From: an uncultured Flavobacteriales bacterium
GTDB taxonomy: Bacteria; Bacteroidota; Bacteroidia; Flavobacteriales_G; Salibacteraceae
Assembly: GCA_913057205.1 (NCBI GenBank)
Contig: CAJXNO010000025.1
Coordinates: forward strand, 1 to 37,507
Length of the DNA: 37,507 nucleotides
Direction: 5' to 3'
The notes beneath the pieces were generated by a model, which had not been told where the DNA came from, made no database searches, and worked only from the letters and a program-made list of their open reading frames with translations. Position 1 is the first letter of the stretch; every line of letters starts with the position of its first letter. This document shows, piece by piece, positions 5,252 to 23,041 of the stretch. Both the position numbers and the translations under genes were made by a program.

Positions 5252-6500
5252 GCTGCTGTTGTCCATAGCAATGATTGTGTGCTCTATTATGCTTCAAGCT
5301 CAGCCGCTGCGGTTCTATTCGGTGGTGTCTCTCATGAATGGTGAGTCTGATTTTGTGACCGATAGCAACACCATCGTAACCTTACCTACATGGGGGTACG
5401 GCTGGAATGCAGGCGGCGCATCTGTGATGACCGTGCCAGGACCAACCATCTACGCCAACGAAGGAGATAGTGTACACCTTCAGATGTCCAATCCATCCAT
5501 GGAAGGACATACGATTCACCTACACGGCTTAGATGTGGACGAAGCAAACGACGGAGTGCCACATCATACTGGTTTCATATTGGAAGGGGAGAGCTTTACG
5601 TACAAGTTCAAAGCTACGCACGCAGGCAACTTCCTGTACCACTGCCATGTGACCACCACCATGCACTTGGCCCTCGGGATGTACGGCAAGGTCATCATCT
5701 ATCCAGACGATAGCACGAACACCTTCTATCCGAACGGACCGACCTTCGACCAGCAATATGAGTTTCTACTATCCGATCTGGATGCACGATGGAACAAGGA
5801 CTACACGAGGATAGGGAGCTTTCTATCCTATGCTCCAGACATGTTCCTGATCAATGGTAAGAACAAGAGCATCTCCTATGCCGACACTTCCAACGTGATG
5901 CACGGCCAACAAGGCGATCAACTGCTGATGCGCTTCCTGAACGTTGGATATCGCGTAAACCGTGTGGTTTTTCCATCGGAGGTGAAGGCGGTGGTGCACA
6001 CTTCGGATGGACGGGTGTTGGACGAAGCATTTACCACCGACACCTTGATCATCTATCCCGGCGAACGCTTCAGTGTACTGGCCGAGATCTTGGACGAATC
6101 GCCAAGCTATGTGCGCATTGATTGGCTCGACCCGTATCGGCTGTCTTACTTGGGTTGTGAGTACATCCCTTTGAACAATGATGACTTCAGCTTCATTCCT
6201 TATGAAGAAGACAACAGCTTAACGGATTCCATAGCACTGGCAACTTTTTCCGAAAAGCGAGTGGTGCCAAACTTCAAGGTGTATCCAAACCCAATTGGAG
6301 AGGCGGTGGTGGTGGCGTCTGATGTTGAATTGAGGGAGTTTATCCTGACCGACCTGAGCGGATCAATGGTCTTTAAGTGCCCAGCGAAGCTTCAAACTGT
6401 GCAAATGATTACGCTTGGCGATCTGTCAGAAGGCCTTTACGTTTTGAGTGCCACGACCGTGAGTGGCGAGCTACTCACCGAACGATTGATTAAGCTTTAA
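5244..6500 (+). CDS. Multicopper oxidase-like protein with type IX secretion sorting domain
   Basis: This 418-residue protein has a signal peptide (1 to about 20, ending LQAQ). The first cupredoxin domain (about 20-155) has HTIHLHG (H89, H92, H94) and HCHVTTTMHLALGM (H133, C134, H135, H141, M146). That is a complete type 1 copper set plus two HxH arms of a trinuclear cluster. A second, copper-less cupredoxin-like domain follows (about 165-310). Residues from about 340 form a type A T9SS C-terminal domain (FKVYPNP... GLYVLSATT... ERLIKL), so the protein is predicted to cross the outer membrane and be cell-surface attached or released. It is co-translated with the upstream partner, which supplies the other two HxH motifs. 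Confidence 0.87.
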   Translation: MNKLLLSIAMIVCSIMLQAQPLRFYSVVSLMNGESDFVTDSNTIVTLPTWGYGWNAGGASVMTVPGPTIYANEGDSVHLQMSNPSMEGHTIHLHGLDVDEANDGVPHHTGFILEGESFTYKFKATHAGNFLYHCHVTTTMHLALGMYGKVIIYPDDSTNTFYPNGPTFDQQYEFLLSDLDARWNKDYTRIGSFLSYAPDMFLINGKNKSISYADTSNVMHGQQGDQLLMRFLNVGYRVNRVVFPSEVKAVVHTSDGRVLDEAFTTDTLIIYPGERFSVLAEILDESPSYVRIDWLDPYRLSYLGCEYIPLNNDDFSFIPYEEDNSLTDSIALATFSEKRVVPNFKVYPNPIGEAVVVASDVELREFILTDLSGSMVFKCPAKLQTVQMITLGDLSEGLYVLSATTVSGELLTERLIKL

Positions 6501-8033: not shown

Positions 8034-8050
8034 GCCGCGCTTCGCGCGGC
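8034..8050 (-). terminator. GC-rich palindrome at the end of the racemase operon
   Basis: GCCGCGC, a TTC spacer and GCGCGGC form a perfect 7-bp stem that touches the stop codon of the last operon gene. On the minus strand it is followed by GGTATTAGGTATTAGG rather than a T-run, so it is either a weak or factor-assisted terminator or a REP-like element linked to the heptamer repeat. Confidence 0.45.
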
Positions 8051-9117
8051 TAAACCACCTTCTTCTCAATATAATCCGAACTCATCAACGCCAGTGCGCC
8101 CATGTACTTCAATCGGAAGGGAACGAGGTCGCCTACTTTGTAGCGGGTTTGTTCTCCCAGGTCGAGTACAATCATATCGCTGCTGGCTCCTGTGATCTCA
8201 ATGTGCTTGTGCTCGGGGATGAGGAACTCCGGTGAGATGTCGAGTAGCCCCAGGTCAAGAATAGCTCGATAAGCAGTCTTGCCACGATCGGCATCGTCTA
8301 CTTCAAAGACCTCTCCAGACGGATTCGCTTCCATCTCACCGATTGGTACTTTGGGCTTTTCAATGATCTCAATGACTTCCGCGTAAAGCTTGATCACATC
8401 GCCTTTCATGCCCTTGATCACCTTGCCAGAGAAGAGGTTCAATCCGAAATACAGGGTTTCACCTACCCGAAAGTGGTTGATGCCTTTGGGCAGCTGCTTT
8501 TTCAGAATAAGCGGAATCACCACGCTGGTTCCGCCCGTCACCCACGGAATCTTCTGGTTGAATTTTACTTCTACCAACTGCTTGTACAGACTGAGCTGAA
8601 TCAACTTGTCGTGCGATGGCATCACCCCATGCAGGCAGTTCAGGTTGGTTCCAAAGCTTACCACCTCGATGTTCGGTAGCTCAAAGACTTGCTCGTAGAA
8701 ATCCACCAGGTCTTCACCTAATACGCCCTCACGTAGGTCGCCCATCTCCACCATGATCACCACTTTGTGCACCTTGTTCTGGCGCTTCGCCTCTTCACTC
8801 AGCCATTTAATGGTTTGGATCTGGGTGTTGAAACTTACATCTGCATACTTCACAATGCTCTTGATGCTGCGTTTTGCTGGAGGCTTGATATAAACGGTCT
8901 GGATGTCTGGATTGATCTTTTTCACCAATTGCAGATTGCTGATGCGTGAATCACAGATTTCCGGTATACCCGTTTCACAGAGGATCTTAACGTAGTCGTA
9001 GTTCCCGCAGAGCAACTTTGAAACAATGGACCAATGAATGTTTCGCTCTTCAAAGAATTGATGCAAGAACGTATAGTTGTGCTTAAGCTTCGCTTTATCA
9101 AAGGTGATGAATGCCAT
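8050..9117 (-). CDS. Alanine/ornithine racemase-like PLP enzyme (YhfX/Orr type)
   Basis: The 355-residue protein belongs to the fold-type III PLP enzymes of the alanine racemase superfamily, on the branch of alanine/ornithine racemases. WSIVSKLLCGN supplies the PLP lysine (Lys34). VEMGDLREGV, GTNLNCLHGV and VTGGTSVVIPL match the conserved barrel strands of that branch, and HFRVGETLYFG is its phosphate-side motif. These enzymes invert free L- or D-amino acids in the cytoplasm. It is last in a five-gene operon, seven bases after a canonical alanine racemase, so it likely has a different substrate, such as ornithine, lysine or another non-alanine amino acid. The substrate is not readable from the sequence. 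Confidence 0.85.
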   Translation of the reverse strand: MAFITFDKAKLKHNYTFLHQFFEERNIHWSIVSKLLCGNYDYVKILCETGIPEICDSRISNLQLVKKINPDIQTVYIKPPAKRSIKSIVKYADVSFNTQIQTIKWLSEEAKRQNKVHKVVIMVEMGDLREGVLGEDLVDFYEQVFELPNIEVVSFGTNLNCLHGVMPSHDKLIQLSLYKQLVEVKFNQKIPWVTGGTSVVIPLILKKQLPKGINHFRVGETLYFGLNLFSGKVIKGMKGDVIKLYAEVIEIIEKPKVPIGEMEANPSGEVFEVDDADRGKTAYRAILDLGLLDISPEFLIPEHKHIEITGASSDMIVLDLGEQTRYKVGDLVPFRLKYMGALALMSSDYIEKKVV

Positions 9118-9124
9118 ACCTGTT

Positions 9125-10270
9125 CTATTTCACTACCCGGGGAATGCCGCTCGGTAGTCGTGTCAATAACTCGTAATTCAATTGGTTTACCGCTTCGCTG
9201 AAACTTGCAACGGTGATCTCAAGGTCGCCGTCATGGCCGATCAAGGTCACCTCATCGCCCTTGCTGGGAGATGCCACTTCCGTAAGGTCTAGCGCAACGC
9301 AGTTCATGTTCACGGTACCGATCACTTGAACACGTGTGCCGTTTACCAAGGCCCTTCCTTGGTTGCTCAATGAGCGGGTAAATCCATGTCCGTATCCTAC
9401 GGGTACAATGCCCATGGTGATGTCGCGCTGGGCGAGGTAGGAGGTGCCATAACCCACAAATTCGCCTTTCTCGATCTGCTTCACACTCATCAAGTGACTC
9501 TTCCAACTGATCAGTCTGCGCAGTGGCTCTCGGTGAGAATGCTTTTTCGTGTACTCGATAAAGGTCTCCATACTGGGCCAGAAGCCGTATTGGAGAATGC
9601 CCACCCGTACCATGTCGAGCATCATCTCAGGAAAGCGCAACATGGCTGCAGAACAGCATGCGTGGCGGTACTTTGGTTTCAGCTCATGCTTGTTAAACCA
9701 CCGCAAGACACGCTTGAACTCCTTGATCTGGTCTTTGATGCGGTAGTAATTCTTAATGCTTTCTGCACCGGCAAAGTGGGTGCATAACCCAGTGAATTCC
9801 AAATGTGCAGCGTTCTCTTCCAGCAGCTGTGCTACCTGGTTCAAATCCTTGGACTCAAAACCAGTCCGGTGCATGCCGGTTTCTACTTCAATGTGCAGTT
9901 TCACTTGCTTGCCGAGGTCTTCTGCCAATCGGATGGCTTTCTGCAAGCGCTCCAATTCAAAGACCCACACCTCAATACCATTGTCAATCGCCCAAGCTAG
10001 TCCGCCATCGTCTACCGACCCCATGATCATGATCTTAGAACGGGGCTGTTTTACCTCAAACACGCGTTGCGCCTCATCTGTACTATACACCGAAAAGTGA
10101 TCGATGCCACAATCTTCTGCCAGCGGAACGTACTCTTCAATACCGTGCCCGTAGGCGTTTCCTTTCACAACGGAACTGAGTAAGCGTTCCGGACCGATCT
10201 GCTCTCTGATGAAGCTCAGGTTATTCTCCAGTGCCGCCTGCTCGATCTCGATGATGGAGGTTTCAAACAT
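9125..10270 (-). CDS. alr: Alanine racemase
   Basis: The 381-residue length is typical of Alr. SVVKGNAYGHG carries the PLP lysine (Lys36), with Gly in place of the usual Ala two residues on. EVETGMHRTGF is the conserved M-x-R-x-G segment. The catalytic tyrosine is in VGYGTSY, and GTVNMNCVALDLT completes the C-terminal domain. The enzyme makes D-alanine for peptidoglycan or uses D-alanine as a nutrient. The start overlaps the amidohydrolase stop by 8 bp, which indicates translational coupling. Because it sits with a transporter, an acetyltransferase and a deacylase rather than with mur genes, a catabolic or recycling role is possible; the cell-wall role is the default. Confidence 0.93.
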   Translation of the reverse strand: MFETSIIEIEQAALENNLSFIREQIGPERLLSSVVKGNAYGHGIEEYVPLAEDCGIDHFSVYSTDEAQRVFEVKQPRSKIMIMGSVDDGGLAWAIDNGIEVWVFELERLQKAIRLAEDLGKQVKLHIEVETGMHRTGFESKDLNQVAQLLEENAAHLEFTGLCTHFAGAESIKNYYRIKDQIKEFKRVLRWFNKHELKPKYRHACCSAAMLRFPEMMLDMVRVGILQYGFWPSMETFIEYTKKHSHREPLRRLISWKSHLMSVKQIEKGEFVGYGTSYLAQRDITMGIVPVGYGHGFTRSLSNQGRALVNGTRVQVIGTVNMNCVALDLTEVASPSKGDEVTLIGHDGDLEITVASFSEAVNQLNYELLTRLPSGIPRVVK

Positions 10271-13446: not shown

Positions 13447-14196
13447 TTAGCGGATGAATAAGCCTTTAACCTGCATCTTTTCATAGAAGGTAAAGAGGGC
13501 AGGAGCAACATCGCTGTAAGCGGTTGATACATCGGATTGAGCAGTTGCTTTGTTGTATGCCGTTTCTATTGGCAATGCAGCTTCAGCCAAGAGCTCAAGG
13601 ATGTTCGCTAAGAGTGGGGTCAAGTTGATGAAATGCACCTTTCCTTCGGTCTGATCACGAAAGCCTAAACAATGGTAATCACCTTGATCACTCGGCGTAA
13701 TCATTCGGGCATTCTTCTGATGTACAGGATAGGAGAACCGCATGATTTCATGCTCTGGGTTCAACACCCAAGCATCTTTACGTGGATCCTTACATGCGAC
13801 CTTCGGTATGCTTTTGTTTGGCATCATGTGGAGTTCAATTTCCTTCCACTCAAATGTCAGTAAATCAATTATAAAAGGGTGCTTAACCTTAAGTGAAGCT
13901 TGATTATGTTCTACGAACCCAATGAGCTCTTCTGGCATGCGCCAGATTTGTGGATGCGCGCAGCGGTGCTGCTCAAAAAAGTCGTTCACCAACACGGCCC
14001 ACTCTTTGGTTCGCAAGGCATTCTTCGCGAGGGGGTAGCTGCGATCAAGCGCGTCGCGTACATTGTTGAATACAAGTCGGCGATAGGTGGCGATGCGACC
14101 AGCGGTAATACCCTCCAGCGTTGGCGTTTCACCATCTCTGCAATATGCGGCAAGCTGTGCCTGCTGTTGGTGTGTATGCTTACTCAGCATCGACAT
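13447..14196 (-). CDS. hvfC: HvfC/BufC-like DUF2063 protein, partner of the MNIO enzyme
   Basis: The 249-residue protein has the N-terminal DUF2063 signature: helices with AAYCRDGETP, RIATYRRLVFNNVRDALDRSYPLAKNAL and FFEQH-like DFFEQHRCAHPQIWRMPEELIGFV. The C-terminal half is a winged-helix-like domain ending LFTFYEKMQVKGLFIR. DUF2063 proteins bind precursor peptides and present them to DUF692 oxidases in HvfABC/bufferin pathways. The gene overlaps the DUF692 gene by 17 bp; a second ATG two codons in would shorten the overlap. It is the last gene of the sigma-factor operon, and no clear terminator follows before the next gene. Confidence 0.85.
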   Translation of the reverse strand: MSMLSKHTHQQQAQLAAYCRDGETPTLEGITAGRIATYRRLVFNNVRDALDRSYPLAKNALRTKEWAVLVNDFFEQHRCAHPQIWRMPEELIGFVEHNQASLKVKHPFIIDLLTFEWKEIELHMMPNKSIPKVACKDPRKDAWVLNPEHEIMRFSYPVHQKNARMITPSDQGDYHCLGFRDQTEGKVHFINLTPLLANILELLAEAALPIETAYNKATAQSDVSTAYSDVAPALFTFYEKMQVKGLFIR

Positions 14197-15010
14197 GCTT
14201 CCATTGTGCTTGTGCGATGGCTTCTAACTGCTGCATTTCCATTTTTAGGGCATCAAGTTCGGGAATGTTGAAGTCGCGTTCGAGTAGGATCGGTACCGGT
14301 GCATCCAATTGCTGAATGGCATAGGCGTAGAGGTCATAGACCGGATTGATGATCGCTTCGCCGTGTGTATCGATGATGAGGTCGTCTGCAACCTGTTCAT
14401 GTCCTGCCATGTGGATGTAACGCACATTCTTCTTGTGTAGGCCATCTATGAAGGCCTTGGCGTCGTAGCCATGATTGAAGGCGTTCACGTAAATGTTGTT
14501 GATGTCGAACAGCAATCCGCAGCCAGACTGTTGTAAGATCTCATTGATGAACTCCAGCTCGGTCATTTCCGCAGCCAGAGGGGTGTAGTAGGATACGATC
14601 TCCAAGATCAGGGGTCTACCCAAGAAGTTCTGCACTTGATCGATGCGGTCTACCACATGAGCAATGGCGTCCTTTCGAAAGGGGATTGGTAGTAGGTCAT
14701 ACAAGTGAGCGTTGTCTACTTGGCTGTAGCTTAGGTGCTCTGAATAGACATCGATCTCCCAATCGTCTAGAAAGGTCTTGATGTTACGCAGCAATGAACG
14801 GTCCAGCGGGTCGGGACTGCCAATGGAAAGAGAGAGGCCGTGCGTGTAGATGGGATAGCGCTCAGCTACGCGCTCGAGTTGTTTTCTCCAATATCCGCCT
14901 ACCCCAAACCAATTCTCGGGAGCAACCTCCACGAAAGCGGGTTCTAGTCCAGGCGTTTCAAAGAAAGCCTCACCAAAGTCTTTTCGGTATCCTAGTCCAA
15001 CGTGCTGCAT
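14180..15010 (-). CDS. hvfB: HvfB-like MNIO (DUF692) peptide-modifying iron enzyme
   Basis: The 276-residue TIM-barrel protein has the full DUF692 ligand set: VAPENWFG, THGLSLSIG (His57), YSEHLSY (Glu91, His92), LEIVSYY (Glu137), FDINNIYVNAFNHG (Asp169, Asn171, His180), IHMAGH (His200, His204), IDTHGEAI (Asp214, His216) and LLERDFNIP (Glu244, Asp246). MNIOs bind two or three irons and oxidise peptide Cys residues; HvfB-type enzymes make oxazolone-thioamide groups. The start MQHVGLG is preferred to a TTG seven codons upstream because that TTG lies inside a terminator-like hairpin. It sits 51 bases after the precursor gene and overlaps hvfC. Confidence 0.93.
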   Translation of the reverse strand: MQHVGLGYRKDFGEAFFETPGLEPAFVEVAPENWFGVGGYWRKQLERVAERYPIYTHGLSLSIGSPDPLDRSLLRNIKTFLDDWEIDVYSEHLSYSQVDNAHLYDLLPIPFRKDAIAHVVDRIDQVQNFLGRPLILEIVSYYTPLAAEMTELEFINEILQQSGCGLLFDINNIYVNAFNHGYDAKAFIDGLHKKNVRYIHMAGHEQVADDLIIDTHGEAIINPVYDLYAYAIQQLDAPVPILLERDFNIPELDALKMEMQQLEAIAQAQWKHVDAE

Positions 15011-15048
15011 AACAAAAACATGCCAGAACAATTGACTGTCCTGGCATG
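15011..15048 (-). terminator. Terminator-like hairpin between hvfA and hvfB (attenuator candidate)
   Basis: On the minus strand CATGCCAG and CTGGCATG form a perfect 8-bp stem, extended by ACA/TGT after one mismatch around a six-base loop, and followed at once by TTTTTGTT. It starts 13 bases after the precursor stop. The hvfB start codon comes directly after the T-tract. This is the shape of a partial intrinsic terminator that would leave much more precursor mRNA than enzyme mRNA. Confidence 0.7.
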
Positions 15049-15061
15049 CATTAACGTTTGC

Positions 15062-15487
15062 TTAGTTCGGGTTGTTCCCGGTCTTCTTGTTCGAGTTGTC
15101 TAGTTCTTTCTTGCGAGAGCGTGGCGCGTCTGCTGACTTGCCTTTGGCGTCGTTGCTGCTCTTCATCTCGTGGTTGTCCTTAGCGGTGCCGCCACACTTG
15201 CCCTCACCACACTTTCCTTCGCCGCATTTGTGTTCAGCGGCTTTGGATTCTGATGCGCTTGATGAGCTCTTTTCTTCACCACACTTTCCTTCGCCACACT
15301 TGGCTTCCGGAGACTTGAATGGACTGCTCGTGTTTGAGAGCAATTCTGCACGCAGTTCTCCGCCTGTTCCGAGGTCGTCGAATGCGATGAGTTCGCTGGC
15401 AGTGGCTGTACTTCCTGCGATGGCTCCGGTCATCAGCGTGCCGGTCAATAAAGCGCCAAAGCGCTTGCTAACATTTCTGTTTTTCAT
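15062..15487 (-). CDS. hvfA: HvfA-like Cys-rich precursor peptide of a modified metallophore
   Basis: The 141-residue precursor has a basic N-terminus and one hydrophobic stretch (about 9-31, GALLTGTLMTGAIAGSTATA) resembling a signal or anchor, then SELIAFDDLGTGGELRAELL, a conserved HvfA-type leader. The core holds five Cys (64, 69, 88, 93, 98), each in xxKCG: EAKCG, EGKCG, EHKCG, EGKCG, EGKCG, in two clusters split by a Ser/Ala linker. A Lys/Asp/Asn-rich tail of about 40 residues follows. In HvfA the EGKCG cysteines become copper-binding oxazolone-thioamides. It lies directly upstream of hvfB and hvfC and downstream of a sigma/anti-sigma pair. Modification and metal are inferred from the family. 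Confidence 0.9.
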   Translation of the reverse strand: MKNRNVSKRFGALLTGTLMTGAIAGSTATASELIAFDDLGTGGELRAELLSNTSSPFKSPEAKCGEGKCGEEKSSSSASESKAAEHKCGEGKCGEGKCGGTAKDNHEMKSSNDAKGKSADAPRSRKKELDNSNKKTGNNPN

Positions 15488-15506
15488 ATAAAGATGGATT
15501 AATTGG

Positions 15507-15734
15507 TTACGTTGTTTGGTCGAGCTTCGCCTTTAGGATGGCCTTCTCATTGGAAGTCAGTCCTTCCTTTTCAGCAAAGTGCTTCATCTCTTGGTCGATC
15601 ATGGTTTGTTGACGGTCAAAGAAGCGACAGTATTTGCACAACAACAAATGCACAAACAGGCGAAACCGGTCCATCTGACGGGTCTTATGCTCGTGTTTCA
15701 TTACACTCAGTTGTGTAGCTTCCTTGCAGTTCAT
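15507..15734 (-). CDS. Zinc-finger anti-sigma factor (ZAS type), small
   Basis: The 75-residue protein has HLLLCKYCRFF, an H-x3-C-x2-C zinc motif (His29, Cys33, Cys36), and an N-terminal MNCKEATQLS that matches the opening helix of ZAS proteins. It lacks a transmembrane helix, so it would act in the cytoplasm. The C-terminal half is a basic amphipathic helix. Four bases separate it from the upstream ECF sigma gene. ZAS factors bind and inhibit their ECF partner until a signal (often thiol oxidation or metal) releases it. A direct metal or thiol response through its Cys residues is inference. Confidence 0.85.
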   Translation of the reverse strand: MNCKEATQLSVMKHEHKTRQMDRFRLFVHLLLCKYCRFFDRQQTMIDQEMKHFAEKEGLTSNEKAILKAKLDQTT

Positions 15735-15738
15735 CGTT

Positions 15739-16302
15739 TTAATTCAACCATGTTTGTTCCAGGCAAGACCTCAGCTGAAGCTTCGCCCGGTGGATCAATA
15801 TCCAGTAGTTGGAAGAACTCACCGACAATTCCTTACAGATCTCTTCTGTTTCCAGGTCTTCCAGGTACTTCATCGCGAATGCATCGCGCTGTTTTGCTTT
15901 TAAGCGCTTTAGGCATCCGTCCAACACTTGCATGAACTCCTTGGAGGCAATTGCCCGGTCTGTACTCCAGTCTTGTGGACGCTTGTCTGGCAACCAGAAA
16001 CCCTTTTCATCAAAGAAGTCGTCATCCGCATCATCTGCATCCTGACCTTGTAAATCAGACTGGATCACCTCTTTCTTTTTCTTGTAGTAATCGAGGATCC
16101 TACTTCTCAAGATCAAAAAGAGCCAACTTTTCTCCGATGCTTCTCCACGAAAGGTGTCTACCGTATTCAAAGCAGATACAAAGGTGTCTTGCACCAAGTC
16201 GCGCGCAATGTCGCGCTCCGGAATGCGTAGAAGGGCATAGTTCAGCAATACATCGCCGTAGCGATCGATCCAATGTTCAGGTTCAAGTTGGTGCTTGCTC
16301 AT
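15739..16302 (-). CDS. ECF-family RNA polymerase sigma factor
   Basis: The 187-residue protein has sigma-70 region 2 (LNYALLRIPERDIARDLVQDTFVSAL, SEKSWLFLILRSRILDYYKKKKE) and region 4 (LKRLKAKQRDAFAMKYLEDLETEEICKELSVSSSNYWILIHRAKLQLRSCLE) joined by an acidic linker (DADDADDDFFDEKG). I start at the ATG of MSKHQLEPE; an in-frame TTG seven codons upstream is less likely. It heads an operon with its anti-sigma and the hvfA-hvfB-hvfC genes, so it probably controls itself, the precursor peptide and the divergent metal operon. The window shows no second ECF promoter copy that I could recognise. Confidence 0.9.
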   Translation of the reverse strand: MSKHQLEPEHWIDRYGDVLLNYALLRIPERDIARDLVQDTFVSALNTVDTFRGEASEKSWLFLILRSRILDYYKKKKEVIQSDLQGQDADDADDDFFDEKGFWLPDKRPQDWSTDRAIASKEFMQVLDGCLKRLKAKQRDAFAMKYLEDLETEEICKELSVSSSNYWILIHRAKLQLRSCLEQTWLN

Positions 16303-16369
16303 TGGACTGAAAGGTAGGAACAAATACTGAATTCCGGTGTTTGGATTGCACAGACGAAAATCTCTTCCT

Positions 16370-16377
16370 TACTTTTG
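16370..16377 (+). promoter_or_regulatory. Promoter -7 element (TACTTTTG) of the metal receptor operon
   Basis: TACTTTTG matches TAnnTTTG exactly. TTG at 16346-16348 lies 21 bases upstream, giving standard spacing. Four bases separate the element from the GTG at 16382, again predicting a leaderless mRNA. It lies in the 79-bp gap shared with the divergent ECF sigma gene. Confidence 0.55.
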
Positions 16378-16381
16378 CATT

Positions 16382-16678
16382 GTGAAACAGTTGTTGTCTT
16401 ACATCTTACTTTTTTGCTTCACCTGGGTGTTGATGCCAAGGGATTGGACACACGACTGTGACCACACGGATATTCACGCCCACGATCATGAACAGACCGA
16501 GCTCTCTGAGGATTGCGAGATCTGTGATTTTGAGTTTGCCCCTTACGTTTCTGCGGATAATCCTGAGATGACAACTGCGCCTCAGCAAGGCTGTGCTTGG
16601 TCATCCGGTAACGTGGTAGTGCTTGCAAAACAAGTGCTCTTTGGAAAGGAAGGCCGTGCGCCGCCGTTGATTGCTTGA
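16382..16678 (+). CDS. Small exported His/Cys-rich protein (putative metal binder)
   Basis: This 98-residue protein opens with a signal peptide (about 1-18) and continues with a metal-ligand-rich patch: His24, Cys26, His28, His32, His34, His36, then Cys45 and Cys48 in DCEICDF. The rest is low in features. I chose the GTG start because the promoter -7 element lies between it and the upstream in-frame ATG at 16337. Small proteins of this layout (HxH patch, then CxxCxF) are common in front of metal-type TonB receptors in Bacteroidota. It is first in the plus-strand operon, 32 bp before the receptor. Binding of Zn or Cu is inferred. Confidence 0.65.
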   Translation: MKQLLSYILLFCFTWVLMPRDWTHDCDHTDIHAHDHEQTELSEDCEICDFEFAPYVSADNPEMTTAPQQGCAWSSGNVVVLAKQVLFGKEGRAPPLIA

Positions 16679-16710
16679 CACGTTTCGTCAACCAGCAATC
16701 ACAATAATCC

Positions 16711-19041
16711 ATGAAATACATCCTTTTTGGGGTGCTGCTTCTTGCAGCGCGCTACACATATGCACAAGAGTCGTGCACACTGACCCTCACAGGTAAGGTA
16801 ATCGATGAACACGATGCCTCAAGCTTGGGCTATGCCGATATCTGGGCAAAGCAAGCAGGCGTCTCAACGATTTCCGATGCTTCCGGTGCGTTCGAGATCA
16901 GTGGTCTTTGCCCTGGTCCGCTAGCGCTCAGAGTTGCTCACGTGGGTTGCGATACCCTGGATGTTGCCTTCATGATCCGTAGGGATACATCGATCCAACT
17001 GTTCATGGAGCACCACACGGAACTGCTAGAGATCGTACAGATTGAGGCAGCCAAGCCACACGAAGACATCATGGCGCGCCAAACGCTGTCAAAACAGAAG
17101 GTAGAACGCATGCAGGCCATGAGCTACGCAGAACTGCTCGATGATGAGCTGGGGGTGCAGATGAACCAAACGGGTGGTAACATCGCCAAGCCCATGCTGC
17201 ATGGCTTGAGTGGAAACAGAGTCGCCTTGCGCGATAATGGGGTGATCTTAGAAGGACAGCAATGGGGCTCAGAACATGCGCCAGAGATCGATCCCTTCGC
17301 AATGGAGGAGGTGGAGGTTGTATATGGCGCAAGCAGTTTACGCTATGGGCCAGAAGCCTTGGCCGGAGCTATCGTTTCCAAACGCAAGACAGAAACCATT
17401 CGGGCACTGAACGGCTGGGTACATATGAATGGTGCAAGCAATGGAAGATCAGGAAACGGATCGGTGATGTTGCGCGGTGCACCCATCAAATCGCTGCCGC
17501 TCTTTGCATTCGTACAAGGTACCGTGGGCCGATCAGGTGATCTCTCAGCGCCGAAGTATGTACTTGACAATACGGGTACATCCAACCTACATGGTCAAGT
17601 AGGACTGACCTATGTAAGTGAGCGTTTTGGAGCGCATACAGAATACCGCCGTTTCAATACCCAACTCGGCATTCTATCGTTTGCTCATGTGGGTAATTTG
17701 ACCGATCTCCGAAATGCGATTGAGTTAGAACGACCAGCTACCGCAACGAATGATTTCAGCTACAGCATCGAGGCGCCGTACCAAAACGTAGAGCACGAGG
17801 TGAGCGCTGCAGAACTGTGGTGGCGCCCACAGCTGGAGACTAAGCTGGAACTGAGCTTCAACCGTCAATACAACCTGCGTCAGGAGTTTGATAACTCCAT
17901 TTTCGCGTTGAACGGCGCCGATCTGCAGTATGAATTGACTACCCACAGCGGAGAGCTACGTCTAGATCATCGCTTTAACACGGTGTTCAAAACGGAGTTT
18001 GGGTTGATCGGGCAGCGACAAGCCAATACCTACACCGGCCGATTCTTTATTCCAAATTTCTTGGCCTATGAAGGAGGCGCCTATCTCATTCAGCATTTGA
18101 CCTTGCAGGAGCAGGAGGTTGAAGTGGGCGTTCGGTACGATGTGCGCCAGCAACAAGCCTTCATGTATAGGATGGATACCCTCTACCGCCCAGAACGCAA
18201 TTTCGCTGGATTGTCATGGAATGTGGGCTACGGTATCGACAAAGGCGTATGGTCCTTATCAACAAACGTGGCGCAAGGCTGGCGTCCACCAGCGATCAAC
18301 GAACTATACAGCAACGGATTGCACCATGGAGCTGCAGCCGTAGAGGTAGGCGATGAGCTACTTGATGAAGAACGCAGCTTCAGTTGGATGAATCAATTTG
18401 AAGTGCGAGACCTCTACTACGGGGGATTGCGTTGGAGCTTTATGGTCCGTGGACATGCGAGTTACTATGATCAATTCATCTACCTCGTACCAACAGGAAC
18501 ACCTGCGCTCACCATTCGCGGCGCATACCCAACGTTTGAATACCGTGGGGTAGATGCGGTGCTGGCGGGTGTAGACGCGTCTTTAGCTGCACGCTTTGGA
18601 GGAAGGTGGTCAGGTGCGCTGGGGGTGGAGATGGTTCGTGCACAGGAATGGAGCATCAAGCGTCCGTTGATCTTCATGCCTGCAGATCGGGCTGATCTGG
18701 AAGTTCGGTATGCCTTAGACCTTTTCAATGAAGGCCGATACATCGCTGTTACTGCAACCGGCGTAAATGAACAATTTCGAGTACCTGGAATCGACTATGC
18801 TCCGCCGCCGCCGACCTATTTCTTACTGGCAAGCGAGTTGGGTTGGGCCTTTCGTTTGAATTCGGATTTCCGTGTGATCACAGCGCTACGGGTATCGAAT
18901 ATCCTGAATACTTCCTATCGATCGTACACCAACAGGCTCCGCTATTTCGCTGATGAGATGGGTAGAAACTTCTCCTTGGTGATTCGGGTGCCCTTTGACT
19001 TTAGTCCGAAACAAGAACACATTCAAATCATCGAACAATGA
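16711..19041 (+). CDS. TonB-dependent outer-membrane receptor, ZnuD-like metal/metallophore type
   Basis: The 776-residue receptor has a signal peptide (1-18, ending TYAQ), a carboxypeptidase-regulatory-like domain (about 24-112), a plug domain (about 120-225: GGNIAKPMLHGLSGNRVALRDNGV, VEVVYGASSLRYGPEALAGAIV) and a 22-strand barrel. SFAHVGNLTDLRNAI, IEAPYQNVEHE and ELYSNGLHHGAAAVEVGD are the motifs of the ZnuD-like Bacteroidota subfamily, whose His and acidic loops bind metal. It should take up metal or a metallophore across the outer membrane with TonB energy. Next door are an HvfA metallophore operon and two metal-binding lipoproteins. Zn versus Cu is open. Confidence 0.9.
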   Translation: MKYILFGVLLLAARYTYAQESCTLTLTGKVIDEHDASSLGYADIWAKQAGVSTISDASGAFEISGLCPGPLALRVAHVGCDTLDVAFMIRRDTSIQLFMEHHTELLEIVQIEAAKPHEDIMARQTLSKQKVERMQAMSYAELLDDELGVQMNQTGGNIAKPMLHGLSGNRVALRDNGVILEGQQWGSEHAPEIDPFAMEEVEVVYGASSLRYGPEALAGAIVSKRKTETIRALNGWVHMNGASNGRSGNGSVMLRGAPIKSLPLFAFVQGTVGRSGDLSAPKYVLDNTGTSNLHGQVGLTYVSERFGAHTEYRRFNTQLGILSFAHVGNLTDLRNAIELERPATATNDFSYSIEAPYQNVEHEVSAAELWWRPQLETKLELSFNRQYNLRQEFDNSIFALNGADLQYELTTHSGELRLDHRFNTVFKTEFGLIGQRQANTYTGRFFIPNFLAYEGGAYLIQHLTLQEQEVEVGVRYDVRQQQAFMYRMDTLYRPERNFAGLSWNVGYGIDKGVWSLSTNVAQGWRPPAINELYSNGLHHGAAAVEVGDELLDEERSFSWMNQFEVRDLYYGGLRWSFMVRGHASYYDQFIYLVPTGTPALTIRGAYPTFEYRGVDAVLAGVDASLAARFGGRWSGALGVEMVRAQEWSIKRPLIFMPADRADLEVRYALDLFNEGRYIAVTATGVNEQFRVPGIDYAPPPPTYFLLASELGWAFRLNSDFRVITALRVSNILNTSYRSYTNRLRYFADEMGRNFSLVIRVPFDFSPKQEHIQIIEQ

Positions 19042-19069
19042 ATCAACAATTAAATCAAATCAAATCAAC

Positions 19070-19639
19070 ATGAAAACAACGTCTAAATTACTCTTGATGG
19101 CCTCGCTGATTGGCTTAACCGTTAGTGCATGTCGCACAGACGATGACCTCCCTGACGTTCCCCAGCCAGTGGTGAACGAGCCAGAGCAGATCACCACGGT
19201 GGAATTACACATTGAAAAAGCTTCAGACAGTTCGCACGTACACGCAACATGGAGCGATCCAGATGGTCCGGGCGGTAATGAGCCCACCATCGACGACATC
19301 ACCTTGGATACCGGTTCAGTTTATACGGTTGAAGTGCACTTCTACGATGAGTCAGGCGATAGTCCGGTGGAGGTGACGAGTGAGATTCGAGAGGAAGGGG
19401 ATGAGCATTTCGTATGCTTTGAATTAGCGCCAACCGAGCTCTCTGACGGAATTGCCATCACAGCTACAGATTCAGATGGGACCTATCCGATCGGACTGGA
19501 TTCTGAGTGGGTTACAACTGGAGCAGCCACAGGAACCCTCACGCTAAAGTTGAAGCATCAGGTAGGCGGCGAAAAAGACGGCACCTGTGAGCCAGGAGGC
19601 ACGGATGTAGAAGTAGTTTTTAACGTTACCATTCAATAA
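19070..19639 (+). CDS. Lipoprotein accompanying the metal TonB receptor
   Basis: The 189-residue lipoprotein has a signal peptide with lipobox TVSAC (Cys21) and an Asp-rich linker (RTDDDLPDVPQP). The body is built like the lipoprotein family that regularly sits beside ZnuD-like receptors in Bacteroidota: EQITTVELHI, then WSDPDGPGGNEPTID, TYxVEVHFYDES, an EVTSEIREEGDEHFVCFEL core with the DEH triad, and a C-terminal KHQVGGEKDGTCEPGGTDVEVVFNV. I place the start at the ATG 28 bases after the receptor stop. It probably acts on the outer membrane as a metal chaperone for the receptor. That role is inferred. Confidence 0.8.
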   Translation: MKTTSKLLLMASLIGLTVSACRTDDDLPDVPQPVVNEPEQITTVELHIEKASDSSHVHATWSDPDGPGGNEPTIDDITLDTGSVYTVEVHFYDESGDSPVEVTSEIREEGDEHFVCFELAPTELSDGIAITATDSDGTYPIGLDSEWVTTGAATGTLTLKLKHQVGGEKDGTCEPGGTDVEVVFNVTIQ

Positions 19640-19669
19640 ACCATCTATAAATCGAAAAACAACTCAATC

Positions 19670-20230
19670 ATGAAAAATAGAATGCAAGTAAAGTCCCTAA
19701 TGGGCGTAACATTGACGGCAGTAGTATTGATTACTGCTTCGTCTTGTAGCAAGACCAATCGCTATGCGAATCGTTTGGAAGGCGAAGTATGGAAAGTATC
19801 GTCCATTACCGTAGGTGGTGAAGATTTGGGAACCGAGTACCTTCCAGAATGGCACATGGAAGATTGCGATCATCACGAAGAGCTCTGTTATGGTCATTGG
19901 GAGGTAGGAACGGAGCACGCCGACTTCATCTGGCAATTCGATGAGGTAGGGCAGGTGTTTACCATCTCCAATCAGTCAGACGATGATCACTCGCATGATG
20001 ATCATGACCACAGCGGCGGCGACCATGATCATAGCGGTGACGATCACGATCACAGTGGTGATGATCATGACCACGACGTGCTTTCAAACGACGCAGTGGA
20101 TCAATGTGAGGAGTTCAGCGGAACCTACGAGGTAGTTGAGTCTAAGCGATTGAGAATGGAGTTCGTGAGCAGCTCAACCTTTGGCCATCCTGGTGAGGAA
20201 GTGCGCATGGTCATCGAGAAGATCGACTGA
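19670..20230 (+). CDS. Lipoprotein with His/Asp repeat tract (putative metal buffer)
   Basis: The 186-residue protein has a lipoprotein signal peptide with lipobox TASSC (Cys26), a lipocalin-like first half (LEGEVWKVSSITVGGEDLG, ADFIWQFDEVGQVFTIS) and a matching last part (CEEFSGTYEVVESKRLRMEF). Inserted between them (104-136) is a DDHDHSGD repeat with four near-copies and about 14 His. The first half also holds a DCDHHEELCYGH cluster. The tract should bind Zn, Cu or Ni cooperatively in the periplasm. The repeat DNA is degenerate rather than identical, so it has been kept by selection for the protein sequence. It is last in the operon. Confidence 0.8.
   Translation: MKNRMQVKSLMGVTLTAVVLITASSCSKTNRYANRLEGEVWKVSSITVGGEDLGTEYLPEWHMEDCDHHEELCYGHWEVGTEHADFIWQFDEVGQVFTISNQSDDDHSHDDHDHSGGDHDHSGDDHDHSGDDHDHDVLSNDAVDQCEEFSGTYEVVESKRLRMEFVSSSTFGHPGEEVRMVIEKID
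20032..20089 (+). repeat. Degenerate repeat encoding DHDHSGD tandem units
   Basis: Codons for DHDHSGD-type units repeat about every 21 bases inside the preceding lipoprotein gene, with third-base changes (for example GATCATGACCAC versus GATCACGATCAC). Confidence 0.6.
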
Positions 20231-20286: not shown

Positions 20287-20667
20287 TTATCGTTGTCCGT
20301 GTGCCGGACGTCTGGGTGTCATGGGATGCGCCGCTGGAACAGGTTTCTTCATCCGCTCGGCACGCAAGCGTCGAGCGATTTCCTGTTGCTCCGGAGTCAA
20401 TACGGCTTGTACCTGCTTTTTGGTTTCCAAGCGCAGCTTAACCAGTGCGTGTCGTGCATCTGCGCCGGGTTTGATAGCTGTTTTCTCTTTCATGTAAGCT
20501 TGCCGGATGCCTTTCAAGGTCTGTGCTTGTTCCGGCGAGAGGTTGAGCTGCGCGTAACGCGCTTTGATCTCTGCACGTATGGGTTTGTGATGGGGCTGTC
20601 TATTGGAAGCTACGACTATACTGCCGAGTCCAAGGACTATGATCCCTATTAGAATGATTGCTTTCAT
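20287..20667 (-). CDS. Spy/CpxP-like periplasmic protein (LTxxQ)
   Basis: The 126-residue protein has an N-terminal hydrophobic helix (signal peptide or anchor, 1 to about 21) and a helical body with two LTxxQ-like motifs: LSPEQAQTLKGIRQAYMKEKTAI and LTPEQQEIARRLRAERMKK. It ends in a basic Pro/His tail (PAAHPMTPRRPAHGQR). Spy/CpxP proteins bind unfolded proteins or metals in the periplasm under envelope or copper stress. It is convergent with the metal operon over a shared terminator, so its proximity may be functional, but it is separately transcribed. Confidence 0.75.
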   Translation of the reverse strand: MKAIILIGIIVLGLGSIVVASNRQPHHKPIRAEIKARYAQLNLSPEQAQTLKGIRQAYMKEKTAIKPGADARHALVKLRLETKKQVQAVLTPEQQEIARRLRAERMKKPVPAAHPMTPRRPAHGQR

Positions 20668-20756
20668 TTTGTTTGATTTTAATGGTTACAACGTGTAAAA
20701 AAGCAAGAGCAGTGCCAAAGTGATCACTGTTAAGCTTTATTGGGAATCGAATACCA

Positions 20757-21461
20757 TTAGAGATGAAGGTAAAAAGGAGCGAGCAAGGCCTTGGAAGCTT
20801 CGGTATAACTGAGATCATCCCCATATAGTATCAACGTGTCATCCTGTAAGCTCGATGCCGTCTTCTTCCATTCCGCTAAGAACCGATTCGCAGCTTTCTT
20901 CGCGTTGGGCTTAATCCTTAAGAGTTTATGGAGCGACCAGCCGAGCGTTTGCGCCTTGACCAGTGTTTCATCCAAACGCTCCATCGGGTAAACCATGCTA
21001 AAGCTGCCATCATCAGAACTCAAGCGGTAGGCATGCGAAAGCATTTCGTGCAGCGGTAGTTCGTCGTCATGCCTACTGCGATGCATGCGTTCATCACTGT
21101 GCACGGTAGAACCATGAAAGAAGGGAGGGTTGCAAACGATGTGGTCGAACAAGGGGTTGGCTTCGAAATCCTGTACAGATGCATGCAATGCAGTTAAGCG
21201 ATCCTTCCAAGGCGATGCTGTAAAGTTCTCGTGTGCTTGAACTGCATTCTGATCATCACGGTCGATGCCTGTTATGAGTGCGCTGGACCTCTGTGCCAGC
21301 ATCAGTGCGATCACTCCGCTGCCTGTACCTACATCTAGGATGCGCTTGTTGCGTTCCACATCAGCCCAAGCCCCGAGGAGGCATGCATCCGTCCCTACCT
21401 TGAACGCGGCCTTGCGCTGTTCAACACGAAAGCGCTTGAATTCAAACCAATCGTTCGGCAT
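20757..21461 (-). CDS. trmN6: tRNA1(Val) (adenine(37)-N6)-methyltransferase
   Basis: This 234-residue SAM enzyme has FKQ-like FEFKRFRVEQRKAAFKVGTDACLLGAW, the motif I ILDVGTGSGVIALMLAQR, the aspartate of GIDRDDQNAV, and the catalytic NPPFF that identifies adenine-N6 methylation. The family modifies A37 of tRNA1Val. The start lies 20 bp inside the purine nucleoside phosphorylase gene, so both are translated from one mRNA. No regulatory signal of its own is visible. Confidence 0.9.
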   Translation of the reverse strand: MPNDWFEFKRFRVEQRKAAFKVGTDACLLGAWADVERNKRILDVGTGSGVIALMLAQRSSALITGIDRDDQNAVQAHENFTASPWKDRLTALHASVQDFEANPLFDHIVCNPPFFHGSTVHSDERMHRSRHDDELPLHEMLSHAYRLSSDDGSFSMVYPMERLDETLVKAQTLGWSLHKLLRIKPNAKKAANRFLAEWKKTASSLQDDTLILYGDDLSYTEASKALLAPFYLHL

Positions 21462-22284
21462 CGATCCTTTGGATGGTGTTCTTAATCAATCGGATCAGTT
21501 TCTTTTCTGCCTTAGCGGCAACGGAGAGGAGTTCCGGGATATTGATCGCTTGTAGGTTGTCAGGATCGCATTCATCTGTGAGTACCACTACACAAGCCAC
21601 GGGCAGTCTAGCATGGTTTGCAACGATTACCTCTGGCGTGGTGCTCATCCCTACAGCGTCTGCACCGATGTTACGGAGGTAGCGGTACTCTGCTGCCGTT
21701 TCCAACATAGGGCCTTGTGCGGACACGTAAACGCCTTCGTTCAGATCCACAGCTTCTTCCTCAGCCGCCGCACGTAAAGCTCGATTCAATCCGGCGTTAT
21801 AGGCTTCACTCATATCAGGAAAGCGCGGACCCAAGCGCTCATCGTTGTTTCCGATCAGTGGATTGCCGGGCAAGAGGTGGATGTGATCGGTCACCAGCAT
21901 CAGGTCGCCTTTGTTCCAATCGATCCGCATCGTTCCAGCCGCACCAGAAAGCAGTACATAAGGAGCCCCCATCGCTTTAAAGACACGTATACCATATGCG
22001 ATTGACGCAAAGTCATGACCCTCGTAATAATGGAAGCGGCCTTGCATTACCAAGACACGCTTACCTTCCAGTATTCCGAACAGCAGCTTTCCTGAATGAA
22101 ACTCTACCGTGGCTTCCGGAAAATGCGGAATGTCATCGTAGGCGATGCTTTGGAGGATTTCCATCTGCGCTGTTAGGCCACCCAATCCGGTCCCGAGTAC
22201 GATGGCACCATCCAATCCATCTATGCCTCGTGCGCGCAAGAACGCGGCACTTTCTTCGATCTGATCAAACAAGGAACTAGTCAT
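21442..22284 (-). CDS. Purine-nucleoside phosphorylase
   Basis: The 280-residue protein has the trimeric PNP pattern: AIVLGTGLGGL for phosphate, ATVEFHSGKLLFG, MQGRFHYYEGH with the phosphate-site His, SGAAGTMRIDWNKGDLMLVTDHIHLL, VYVSAQGPMLETAAEYRYLRNIGADAVGMSTTPE with the base-site Glu and the Met-Ser-Thr, and VLTDECDPDNLQ ending with the Asn-like purine contact. It splits purine nucleosides with phosphate for salvage. I place the start at the ATG of MTSSLFDQ; an upstream extension is possible but would overlap the SDR gene more. The genes on both sides overlap by 8 to 20 bp. Confidence 0.92.
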   Translation of the reverse strand: MTSSLFDQIEESAAFLRARGIDGLDGAIVLGTGLGGLTAQMEILQSIAYDDIPHFPEATVEFHSGKLLFGILEGKRVLVMQGRFHYYEGHDFASIAYGIRVFKAMGAPYVLLSGAAGTMRIDWNKGDLMLVTDHIHLLPGNPLIGNNDERLGPRFPDMSEAYNAGLNRALRAAAEEEAVDLNEGVYVSAQGPMLETAAEYRYLRNIGADAVGMSTTPEVIVANHARLPVACVVVLTDECDPDNLQAINIPELLSVAAKAEKKLIRLIKNTIQRIDAERLV

Positions 22285-23041
22285 GCTTGCGATGGATGTA
22301 GAAACTATTGGCTTGAGATACACTGGTCAACACCATGTCATTGATGCACAGGTGAGGAGGGAGGGTGGTTACGTAGTAGGTCACCTCCGCGATGTCTTCT
22401 ACTGTCATCGGTTGATACCCTTTGTACACATCCTTTGCACGTTGTTTATCGCCATGGAAGCGAACTTCGCTGAACTCGGTCTCTGCTGCACCCGGAGCGA
22501 TCTGGGTGACCTTCACACCCGTACCAAGCAGGTCGATGCGCATGCCTTTGGTGATGGCGTCTACCGCGTGCTTGCTGGCGCAATAGACGTTGCCGTTCTC
22601 GTATACTTCTTTTCCTGCGGTGGATCCAATGTTGATGACATGCCCACTTCCGCGCTTCACCATTCCTGGAAGGATGGCCTTGGATACGTAGAGCAATCCT
22701 TTCACGTTCGTGTCGATCATCTTGTCCCAATCATCCAAGTCACCATCCTGCACATGACTGAGTCCGCTGGCAAGGCCGGCATTGTTCACGAGAACATCCA
22801 CCTGCTGCCATTCGGTTGGCAGGTGATTCAATACATCAAGCGTCTTCTGTCGGTCCCGAACGTCGAAATTCAGCGTTAGACAAGCGGTTTCGAAACGTGT
22901 TGTGATTTCCTTCTTAAGGTCATTCAATCGATCGGATCTTCTTCCGGTGACGATAACCCGGTATCCCTCCGAGGCAAATCGAAGTGCGATGGCTTTTCCA
23001 AATCCGGCCGTAGCACCGGTAATCAATGCAGTTTTCTCCAT
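22277..23041 (-). CDS. Short-chain dehydrogenase/reductase (YdfG-like)
   Basis: This 254-residue SDR has TGATAGFGKAIA for NAD(P), the VNNAGLASG strand, and a catalytic Ser-Tyr-Lys in INIGSTAGKEVYENGNVYCASKHA. VTGRRSDRLN after strand 2 has Arg residues, favouring NADPH. It resembles the serine/3-hydroxy acid dehydrogenase branch typified by YdfG, including the late EVTYYVTTLPPHLCINDMVL segment. The substrate is likely a small hydroxy acid or beta-hydroxy amino acid. It overlaps the phosphorylase gene downstream by 8 bp. Confidence 0.9.
   Translation of the reverse strand: MEKTALITGATAGFGKAIALRFASEGYRVIVTGRRSDRLNDLKKEITTRFETACLTLNFDVRDRQKTLDVLNHLPTEWQQVDVLVNNAGLASGLSHVQDGDLDDWDKMIDTNVKGLLYVSKAILPGMVKRGSGHVINIGSTAGKEVYENGNVYCASKHAVDAITKGMRIDLLGTGVKVTQIAPGAAETEFSEVRFHGDKQRAKDVYKGYQPMTVEDIAEVTYYVTTLPPHLCINDMVLTSVSQANSFYIHRKHD

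Follow-up and report, generated by a model that had tools for sequence, protein, structure and literature searches.

Of the systems already described, those nearest to the locus studied here include ones from Neisseria and Haemophilus. In the meningococcus, doxX, three hypothetical genes, sigE (NMB2144) and mseR (NMB2145) make up the operon NMB2140-2145. The meningococcal sigma-E consensus is GTMAGBWTT-N12-13-CGTCTAAH; in MseR, Cys34 is essential, Cys4 and Cys37 matter and His30 does not, and sigma-E did not respond to the oxidants tried in that study (PMC2893595). Deletion of mseR raises expression of the operon and of msrA/msrB (PMC3240639). In H. influenzae exposed to HOCl, RpoE2 and the 67-residue HrsE control msrAB as well as a DoxX/DUF692/DUF2063 cluster (PMC7907618). 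Captophorin peptides carry 5-thiooxazoles and bind copper (PMC13097082, PMC13419390), and their published phylogenetic tree covers Pseudomonadota (PMC13097082). A survey of the MNIO landscape lists the EGKCG group with RiPP, MNIO, DUF2063 and DoxX and reports a sigma factor with NrsF for Buf1; its main text holds no word starting with 'bacteroid' (PMC12452194). We analysed a stretch of 37,507 nucleotides from an uncultured Flavobacteriales bacterium (contig CAJXNO010000025.1), called the window throughout, which carries on its minus strand an extracytoplasmic function (ECF) sigma gene, a ZAS anti-sigma gene and hvfABC-type genes for a peptide precursor (HvfA), an MNIO (HvfB) and its DUF2063 partner (HvfC). 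Our subject is this cassette and a putative promoter inside its sigma gene.

The cassette was compared across 100 non-redundant loci, the window included. Because the best 80 of 138 confirmed relatives were kept, the set leans to close relatives, and because the loci were picked by likeness to the window MNIO (query 14180-15001 or 14180-15031), the counts below are not phylum frequencies. Short loci (L001-L022 and L036-L052), being places fetched again at greater width or, in eight cases (L015-L022), distant MNIO places, were left out along with ten same-contig duplicates, and L091 and L131 were counted despite doubtful taxon labels (Beijerinckiaceae and Patescibacteria). Every locus with both a sigma and an anti-sigma gene entered a set of 66 linked pairs, 60 of which gave a gap between the anti-sigma and precursor genes. 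The motif GTMAGG-N15-CGWCTA was first spotted by eye in these gaps and counted afterwards with the pattern GT[ACT]AG-N, spacer 15 or 16, CG[AT][CA]. It was found in 38 of the 60 gaps, starting 54-79 nt ahead of the precursor with a spacer of 15 in 37 cases and 16 in 1, compared with a mean of 0.675 and a maximum of 3 in 200 rounds of shuffling. The motif matches the Neisseria sigma-E consensus, which was read only after the count. When a position weight matrix (PWM) built from 37 intergenic sites was applied to Pseudomonadota, the best match in an 8.5-kb gonococcal stretch was the site before doxX (22.3; next 3.1), and an Enterobacter plasmid had a site before a DUF2282 gene (18.1; next 10.0). 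A Ciceribacter site after the anti-sigma gene scored 14.4, but the next match there reached 12.8, and the best in an Acinetobacter stretch was only 7.3. A promoter sequence of this kind makes the regulon predictable across phyla.

A second strong PWM match was found inside the sigma gene, over codons 163-172 (C-K/Q-E-L-x-I-x-x-S-N; open reading frame (ORF) numbering, that of the 187-residue protein plus 7), oriented towards the anti-sigma gene. Matches of at least 15 lay inside the sigma gene in 54 of the 66 linked loci, after the anti-sigma gene in 50 (a partly circular figure, since the PWM was trained on 37 intergenic sites, unlike the intragenic and Neisseria figures), at both places in 46 and upstream of sigma in 1. 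The background outside the region was 5 in 1535 windows of 320 nt, and the full intragenic site was present in 49 of the 66 sigma genes. In the four non-Bacteroidota stretches, none of the four best matches was a strong one within sigma, where the highest score was 5.8. Of four sigma loci without adjoining hvf genes, L262 and L270 have intact sigma and anti-sigma genes and keep TGTAAGG-N15-CTTC, as expected if the site serves the anti-sigma gene; in L272 the site is kept, though the sigma frame holds a stop and no anti-sigma was seen. This placement of the sites suggests that sigma itself is probably outside the sigma-driven transcript, and the proposal of the initial annotation that all five genes share one transcript driven by the sigma factor is now doubtful. 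The idea that sigma is itself preceded by a promoter of this type was rejected on the single case in 66, as was GTAAGG-N10-CGTCTG at that place in the window, for its wrong spacing and a PWM score of -2.0; exact gapped k-mer enrichment upstream of sigma returned A/T-rich words only.

Codon choice at the intragenic site was strongly skewed. Lys164 was encoded by AAG in 54 of 54 cases (16.6 expected from each locus's codon use), Cys163 by TGT in 65 of 66 (33.7 expected) and Ser171 by TCT in 34 of 55 (10.2 expected), and these were the three largest codon deviations among 48 conserved columns. Codon 170 ended in CG (TCG, CCG, GCG or ACG) in 50 of 64 (16.1 expected). The other three conserved Lys columns showed no AAG bias beyond a mild lean at Lys75, the Cys137 codon was unbiased and Cys187 leaned to TGC. 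With one sequence for each of 41 clusters at 70% identity, AAG was found in 31 of 31 (10.0 expected), TGT in 40 of 41 (21.0), xCG in 30 of 40 (9.6) and the full site in 29; at 55% identity (20 clusters) AAG was found in 14 of 14 (4.4 expected). Furthermore, residue 164 covaried with the corresponding -35 base of the intergenic copy. Loci with Gln164 (CAG) have intergenic GTCAG and those with Lys164 (AAG) have GTAAG, giving 35 K/A, 10 Q/C, no Q/A, one K/C (L102) and one E/C (L131) (Fisher test, 2.7e-9, with the E row omitted and ancestry uncorrected). From an alignment with E. coli sigma-E, residue 164 presumably falls in the first helix of the region-4.2 helix-turn-helix rather than in the recognition helix, which makes a protein–DNA contact a less likely cause of the covariation than a link between the DNA sequences themselves. 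In the sequences compared, the codon choice is best explained by selection on DNA, and protein conservation explains it poorly.

Collectively, these data make it probable, in our judgement, that in Bacteroidota and Ignavibacteriota the helix-turn-helix codons of the sigma gene carry a copy of the promoter that their own sigma factor recognises, kept by synonymous-codon selection. Such a copy would provide a built-in shut-off loop that raises the anti-sigma without raising sigma, over a redox regulon (msr genes plus the thiooxazole copper peptide) that Neisseria and Haemophilus also have. This would be a case of dual coding, for protein and promoter, with a testable feedback role. The nearest published case seen is an intragenic promoter in Caulobacter cabp that feeds sigV (PMC13171946), and FliA sites are described inside E. 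coli genes (PMC4183435). In a literature collection with few subscription papers, we found no earlier description of an anti-sigma gene fed by a promoter within its sigma gene, nor one of such a regulon in Bacteroidota.

We then asked which other genes might belong to the regulon. With the pattern GTAAG-N16-C[GT]TC, picked after the msr loci had been inspected, sites were found upstream of msrA in 9 of 13 loci of the window's genus (8 CGTC, 1 CTTC; shuffle mean 0.02) and upstream of msrB in 7 of 11, all CTTC (shuffle mean 0.024), with a maximum of 1 in 500 shuffles for each. Two truncated msrB loci, L254 (the genome's own, cut by the contig end) and L255, were excluded from the 11. The genome's own msrA has TGTAAGG-N15-CGTCCA starting 49 nt ahead of the ATG. 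Perfect matches in 17 other carrier genomes numbered 40, of which 19 were the two cassette sites; 30 of the 40, among them L167's own site, were made into loci, and the sites read, which do not include that of L167, comprise 11 outside the cassette. Three of the 11 lay upstream of msrA (L184) or msrB (L160, L182), and others preceded genes for a cyclopropane-synthase-like protein (L159), a redoxin (L163), a pyridine nucleotide-disulphide oxidoreductase (L177) and cytochrome b561 (L181, common to L167). In the window's own genome, the single perfect match (L149) had no nameable gene downstream, and an AhpD-like site (L193, PWM 20.0) was set aside as it did not appear in three genus relatives with the gene.

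In the window, the best PWM match was TGTAAGGAATTGTCGGTGAGTTCTTCCAA (15809-15837), with a score of 15.3 and the next at 10.1. The 19-nt gap between anti-sigma and precursor genes has no intergenic promoter, as is also the case in L054-L057, and the intragenic copy is the only candidate found. Promoters like the Neisseria consensus were seen in many relatives and in part at the genome's own msrA, while the window cassette has only the CTTC variant. Several observations weigh against the promoter and regulon proposed above. The intragenic site of the window has an intact -35, but its -10, CTTC, has diverged from CGTCTA, and its score lies below that of every trained site (lowest 16.7, median 24.3). 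Among nine members of the window's family the intragenic -35 is kept in all and the -10 reads CTTC in eight, which may reflect decay rather than a shifted preference; as a counterweight, the seven genus msrB sites likewise have CTTC. L269, a sigma locus that has no adjoining hvf genes and whose sigma frame is interrupted by a stop, lacks the intragenic -35. Among 34 msr loci from other genera in the same search, a PWM match of at least 10 was confined to two (L226 and L238). A one-mismatch scan of the window's own genome gave no enrichment (17 versus 70 in the reversed control), and the 40 perfect matches in the carrier genomes compare with 42 in the reversed control, although without two Chitinophaga genomes (those of L059 and L066) the figures are 36 and 14. 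Finally, one phmmer query detected no DoxX downstream of the window MNIO.

Some of these points favour the alternative that survives best, in which the window sigma factor controls msr-type genes only and hvfABC is read from a housekeeping promoter or is decaying. The missing intergenic promoter, the diverged -10 and the absent DoxX would all fit, as would the fact that four genomes of the genus (G297, G299, G303 and G305; 78-94% complete) have the sigma factor but yielded no MNIO. The window ORFs are intact, however, the KCG core is kept and so is the -35 throughout the family, and we regard this alternative as possible but improbable.

The initial annotation described the system as metal-stress-induced. 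Under that explanation, an excess of copper (or gold or zinc) would be the physiological inducer of a plain metal-buffering operon, with msr control secondary. Relatives of the peptide do bind Cu(I), bufferins aid growth in copper, and Cu(I) could occupy the ZAS cysteines. On the other hand, sigma-type sites precede msrA/msrB in the genus and in carriers L160, L182 and L184, the H. influenzae cluster is induced by HOCl through RpoE2, Microbulbifer EGKCG genes were not induced by copper (PMC12538549), and the 11 non-cassette sites read, a small sample, included none with a copper-efflux gene. Metal stress is thus not what the likely regulon suggests, and we consider copper an unlikely inducer. 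The msrA/msrB sites in the genus, as in the Neisseria and Haemophilus regulons, make a response to oxidant damage that includes copper handling likelier than one to metal stress as such, and they link the copper peptide with methionine sulfoxide repair.

It could also be argued that the site in the sigma gene is not a promoter and that the codon bias comes from RNA structure, translation or shared ancestry. The poor -10 of the window copy, the 17 of 66 sigma genes without a full site and the likeness of AAGGA to a ribosome-binding motif would be consistent with this. But the bias sits at promoter positions and fits the spacing of the motif, persists after clustering and covaries with the intergenic copy. 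Neither Cys137 nor the remaining conserved Lys columns show it, the Cys187 codon is skewed towards TGC instead, and comparable matches are rare both upstream of sigma and in the background. This explanation therefore appears quite unlikely to us. A metallophore that brings in metal through the divergent TonB receptor cassette (16337-20230) is very improbable: that cassette, with its receptor, small His/Cys protein and His-rich lipoprotein, begins 35-80 bp away from sigma, according to the start codon taken, and a similar receptor and small protein occur in L054, L055, L056 and L140, but receptor relatives were found in just 5 of the 100 loci, 85 of which had at least 6 kb upstream (one phmmer query), the L262 receptor stands beside a sigma–anti-sigma pair without adjoining hvf genes, and L057 has a PNP and a methyltransferase gene upstream of sigma instead.

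We therefore return to the reading of the cassette as an operon of the captophorin/oxazolin type within a redox stress regulon, with a brake promoter inside the sigma gene; we favour it with fair confidence, slightly less than for the codon-level claim itself. Observed here were the genes themselves, the unvarying ZAS residues, conserved promoter sequences, constrained codons and promoter-like sites at msr genes; from these we infer an activating signal, promoter activity, peptide modification, copper binding and location as follows. A zinc-binding cytoplasmic anti-sigma would keep the ECF sigma factor inactive until oxidation of the thiols in its Cys3/His29/Cys33/Cys36 site, or a thiophilic metal acting there, sets sigma free, by analogy with MseR and RsrA. 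Free sigma would recognise GTMAGG-N15-C(G/T)TC promoters, the predicted targets being the anti-sigma–precursor gap and the sigma-gene interior in most linked relatives, and msrA and msrB in the genus. In the window, the intragenic copy would drive anti-sigma-hvfA-hvfB-hvfC, so that the brake rises with the output and sigma does not. HvfB and HvfC would turn the KCG cysteines into 5-thiooxazoles, and the peptide, exported by Sec, would bind periplasmic Cu(I) at the same time as oxidised methionines are repaired by MsrA/MsrB, bringing copper chelation and methionine repair together in the envelope.

Profile searches supported the assignments of the five window genes, which are tightly packed on one strand as first described (Table 1). 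The sigma factor passed its model (TIGR02943, 163.1 bits; cut-off 162.2), and the anti-sigma has the predicted H-x3-C-x2-C motif plus Cys3, although NF052368 gave 39.6 bits, below the cut-off of 50; at its length the anti-sigma is too short for a membrane anchor and an outer domain, and it is predicted to be cytoplasmic. All five xxKCG units of the precursor were found (AKCG, GKCG, HKCG, GKCG and GKCG, three of the five being GKCG). By eye, its N-terminus has positive charge, a hydrophobic stretch and an ATA-S site. The precursor matched the HvfA family domain NF050137 (40.8 bits; cut-off 19.5) and fell below the cut-off of the HvfA equivalog NF050188 (29; cut-off 95). A leader motif of the type LGSG-x-E-x-R occurred in 76 of 83 candidate precursors and is a candidate HvfC recognition sequence. 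The MNIO matched PF05114 (2.7e-98; the one match in the window's 2.83-Mb genome) and the HvfB family model NF003818 (366.6 bits; cut-off 360), and was below the cut-offs for BufB (NF050167, 277.5; cut-off 310) and the methanobactin equivalog MbnB (TIGR04159, 58.6; cut-off 325). The DUF2063 partner was borne out by PF09836 (4.9e-18) and PF22106 (2.7e-9), with the HvfC model NF050145 at 140.6 bits, 1.4 bits short of the cut-off of 142; a profile search found no DUF2282 precursor in the window cassette. A full set of metal ligands had been claimed for the MNIO, and this was upheld for the three site-3 residues compared: by alignment through 3BWW, whose residue numbers appear to be one below those of HvfB, N168, D211 and H213 are the counterparts of HvfB N175, D242 and H244, which are essential (PMC13419390).

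Table 1. Features of the hvf-type cassette in the window
Feature	Coordinates	Strand	Basis
ECF sigma factor, TIGR02943 type, 187 aa	15739..16302	-	ORF and profile match
ZAS anti-sigma factor, 75 aa; C3, H29, C33, C36	15507..15734	-	ORF and profile
HvfA-like precursor, 141 aa	15062..15487	-	ORF and profile; Sec-type signal peptide by eye
Precursor leader stretch AFDDLGTGGELRAELL, conserved	15338..15385	-	
Core with five KCG units, residues 61-100	15188..15307	-	
HvfB-type MNIO (DUF692/PF05114)	14180..15010	-	ATG at 15010
HvfC-type partner (DUF2063 + NGO1945_C), relative of 3DEE	13447..14196	-	
Candidate sigma-dependent promoter in sigma gene, TGTAAGG-N15-CTTCCAA	15809..15837	-	Best PWM match in window

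The same gene order was widespread among the relatives. In the 92 loci with at least 2.4 kb upstream (8 with less were excluded), a same-strand sigma gene preceded the MNIO in 65, an anti-sigma in 66 and both in 63. HvfC followed the MNIO in 88 of 89 loci with 2 kb downstream, and one phmmer query found a DoxX relative downstream in 53 of these 89 (for example PF07681 in L091) and none in the window's genus neighbours L053-L057. The sigma factor was found in 12 of 13 genus genomes; the pair was not present in L024-L030 of the phylum sample. PF05114 was detected in 21 of the 296 genomes of that sample (the window's included; 14 above 300 bits), and the HvfB model in 17 of 41 relatives, own genome included. 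Cys3, His29, Cys33 and Cys36 were invariant in all 66 linked anti-sigmas, which span 75-115 aa (63 listed), and the linked sigma factors had Cys137 in 65 of 66 and Cys163 and Cys187 in 66 of 66; conservation of Cys163 may be due in part to TGT being promoter sequence. Carriers include isolates with strain names (Chitinophaga, Sediminibacterium, Hydrotalea).

Further genes of the window were noted in passing. The plus-strand divergent cassette at 16337-20230 encodes a small His/Cys-rich protein, a TonB receptor and, by eye, a lipoprotein and a lipoprotein with His-Asp repeats; it looks like a metal uptake cassette, and hemin- and ZnuD-like scores of the receptor were far under the cut-offs. On its far side from sigma stands an LTXXQ-methyltransferase-PNP block (20287-22323), and in L057 the methyltransferase-PNP pair is directly upstream of sigma. 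Two adjoining multicopper-oxidase-like proteins (PF07731; PF07732) are encoded at 4409-6500 (+), about 7 kb from the cassette, and two consecutive alanine-racemase-family proteins, the first without a C-terminal domain match, at 8050-10270 (-).

In summary, the cassette is of the captophorin/oxazolin (EGKCG MNIO-PME1 RiPP) type by its KCG repeats, HvfB-type MNIO and DUF2063 protein, without the DoxX that is frequent, though not universal, in that type. Like the captophorins (fontiphorin, oxazolin and gonophorin) and bulbicupramide, it combines KCG-type repeats with an MNIO and a DUF2063 partner. Buf1 bufferins have an MNIO, DUF2063 and ECF sigma in common with it, but a DUF2282 precursor and the anti-sigma NrsF, a membrane protein. 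The regulators, an ECF sigma and an adjoining short ZAS protein that has H-x3-C-x2-C and a Cys near its N-terminus, group by sequence with SigE-MseR and RpoE2-HrsE. The relatives' cassette shares with Neisseria (NMB2140-NMB2145 / NGO1948-NGO1943) the same six protein kinds, the ZAS spacing and the promoter consensus, and msrA/msrB belong to the Neisseria regulon, as is suggested for the window's genus. The gonococcal region (L189, a chromosome-sized 2.17-Mb N. gonorrhoeae record listed as a plasmid in PLSDB) holds doxX, a 102-residue KCG precursor, the MNIO, DUF2063, sigma and a ZAS protein. The Neisseria genes run doxX-A-B-C-sigma-anti behind a site that precedes doxX, which makes sigma autoregulated there, whereas the window has no adjoining doxX; the gonococcal sigma gene has no strong intragenic match, and the leader motif of the precursors compared here was not seen in the gonococcal one. 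The H. influenzae RpoE2-HrsE/hvfABCX (oxazolin) system has a similarly short ZAS anti-sigma (67 aa), but its sigma pair stands beside msrAB and not beside the hvf cluster. Of the initial annotation, an HvfABC-type cassette linked to a sigma/ZAS pair, with copper-binding homologues, has stood, while the inducer, the transcript and details of the chemistry have changed; the published cysteine modification is now 5-thiooxazole. It had also cited sigma pairs beside bufferin operons, and sigma/ZAS control of hvf-type genes has been published both for Neisseria and, with the sigma pair unlinked, for Haemophilus, so this kind of control was already known. Our comparison adds Bacteroidota and Ignavibacteriota to the Pseudomonadota in which captophorin cassettes under sigma/ZAS control were known, and what is new is the gene order in the loci compared, the promoter conservation, the intragenic copy and the genus msr sites.

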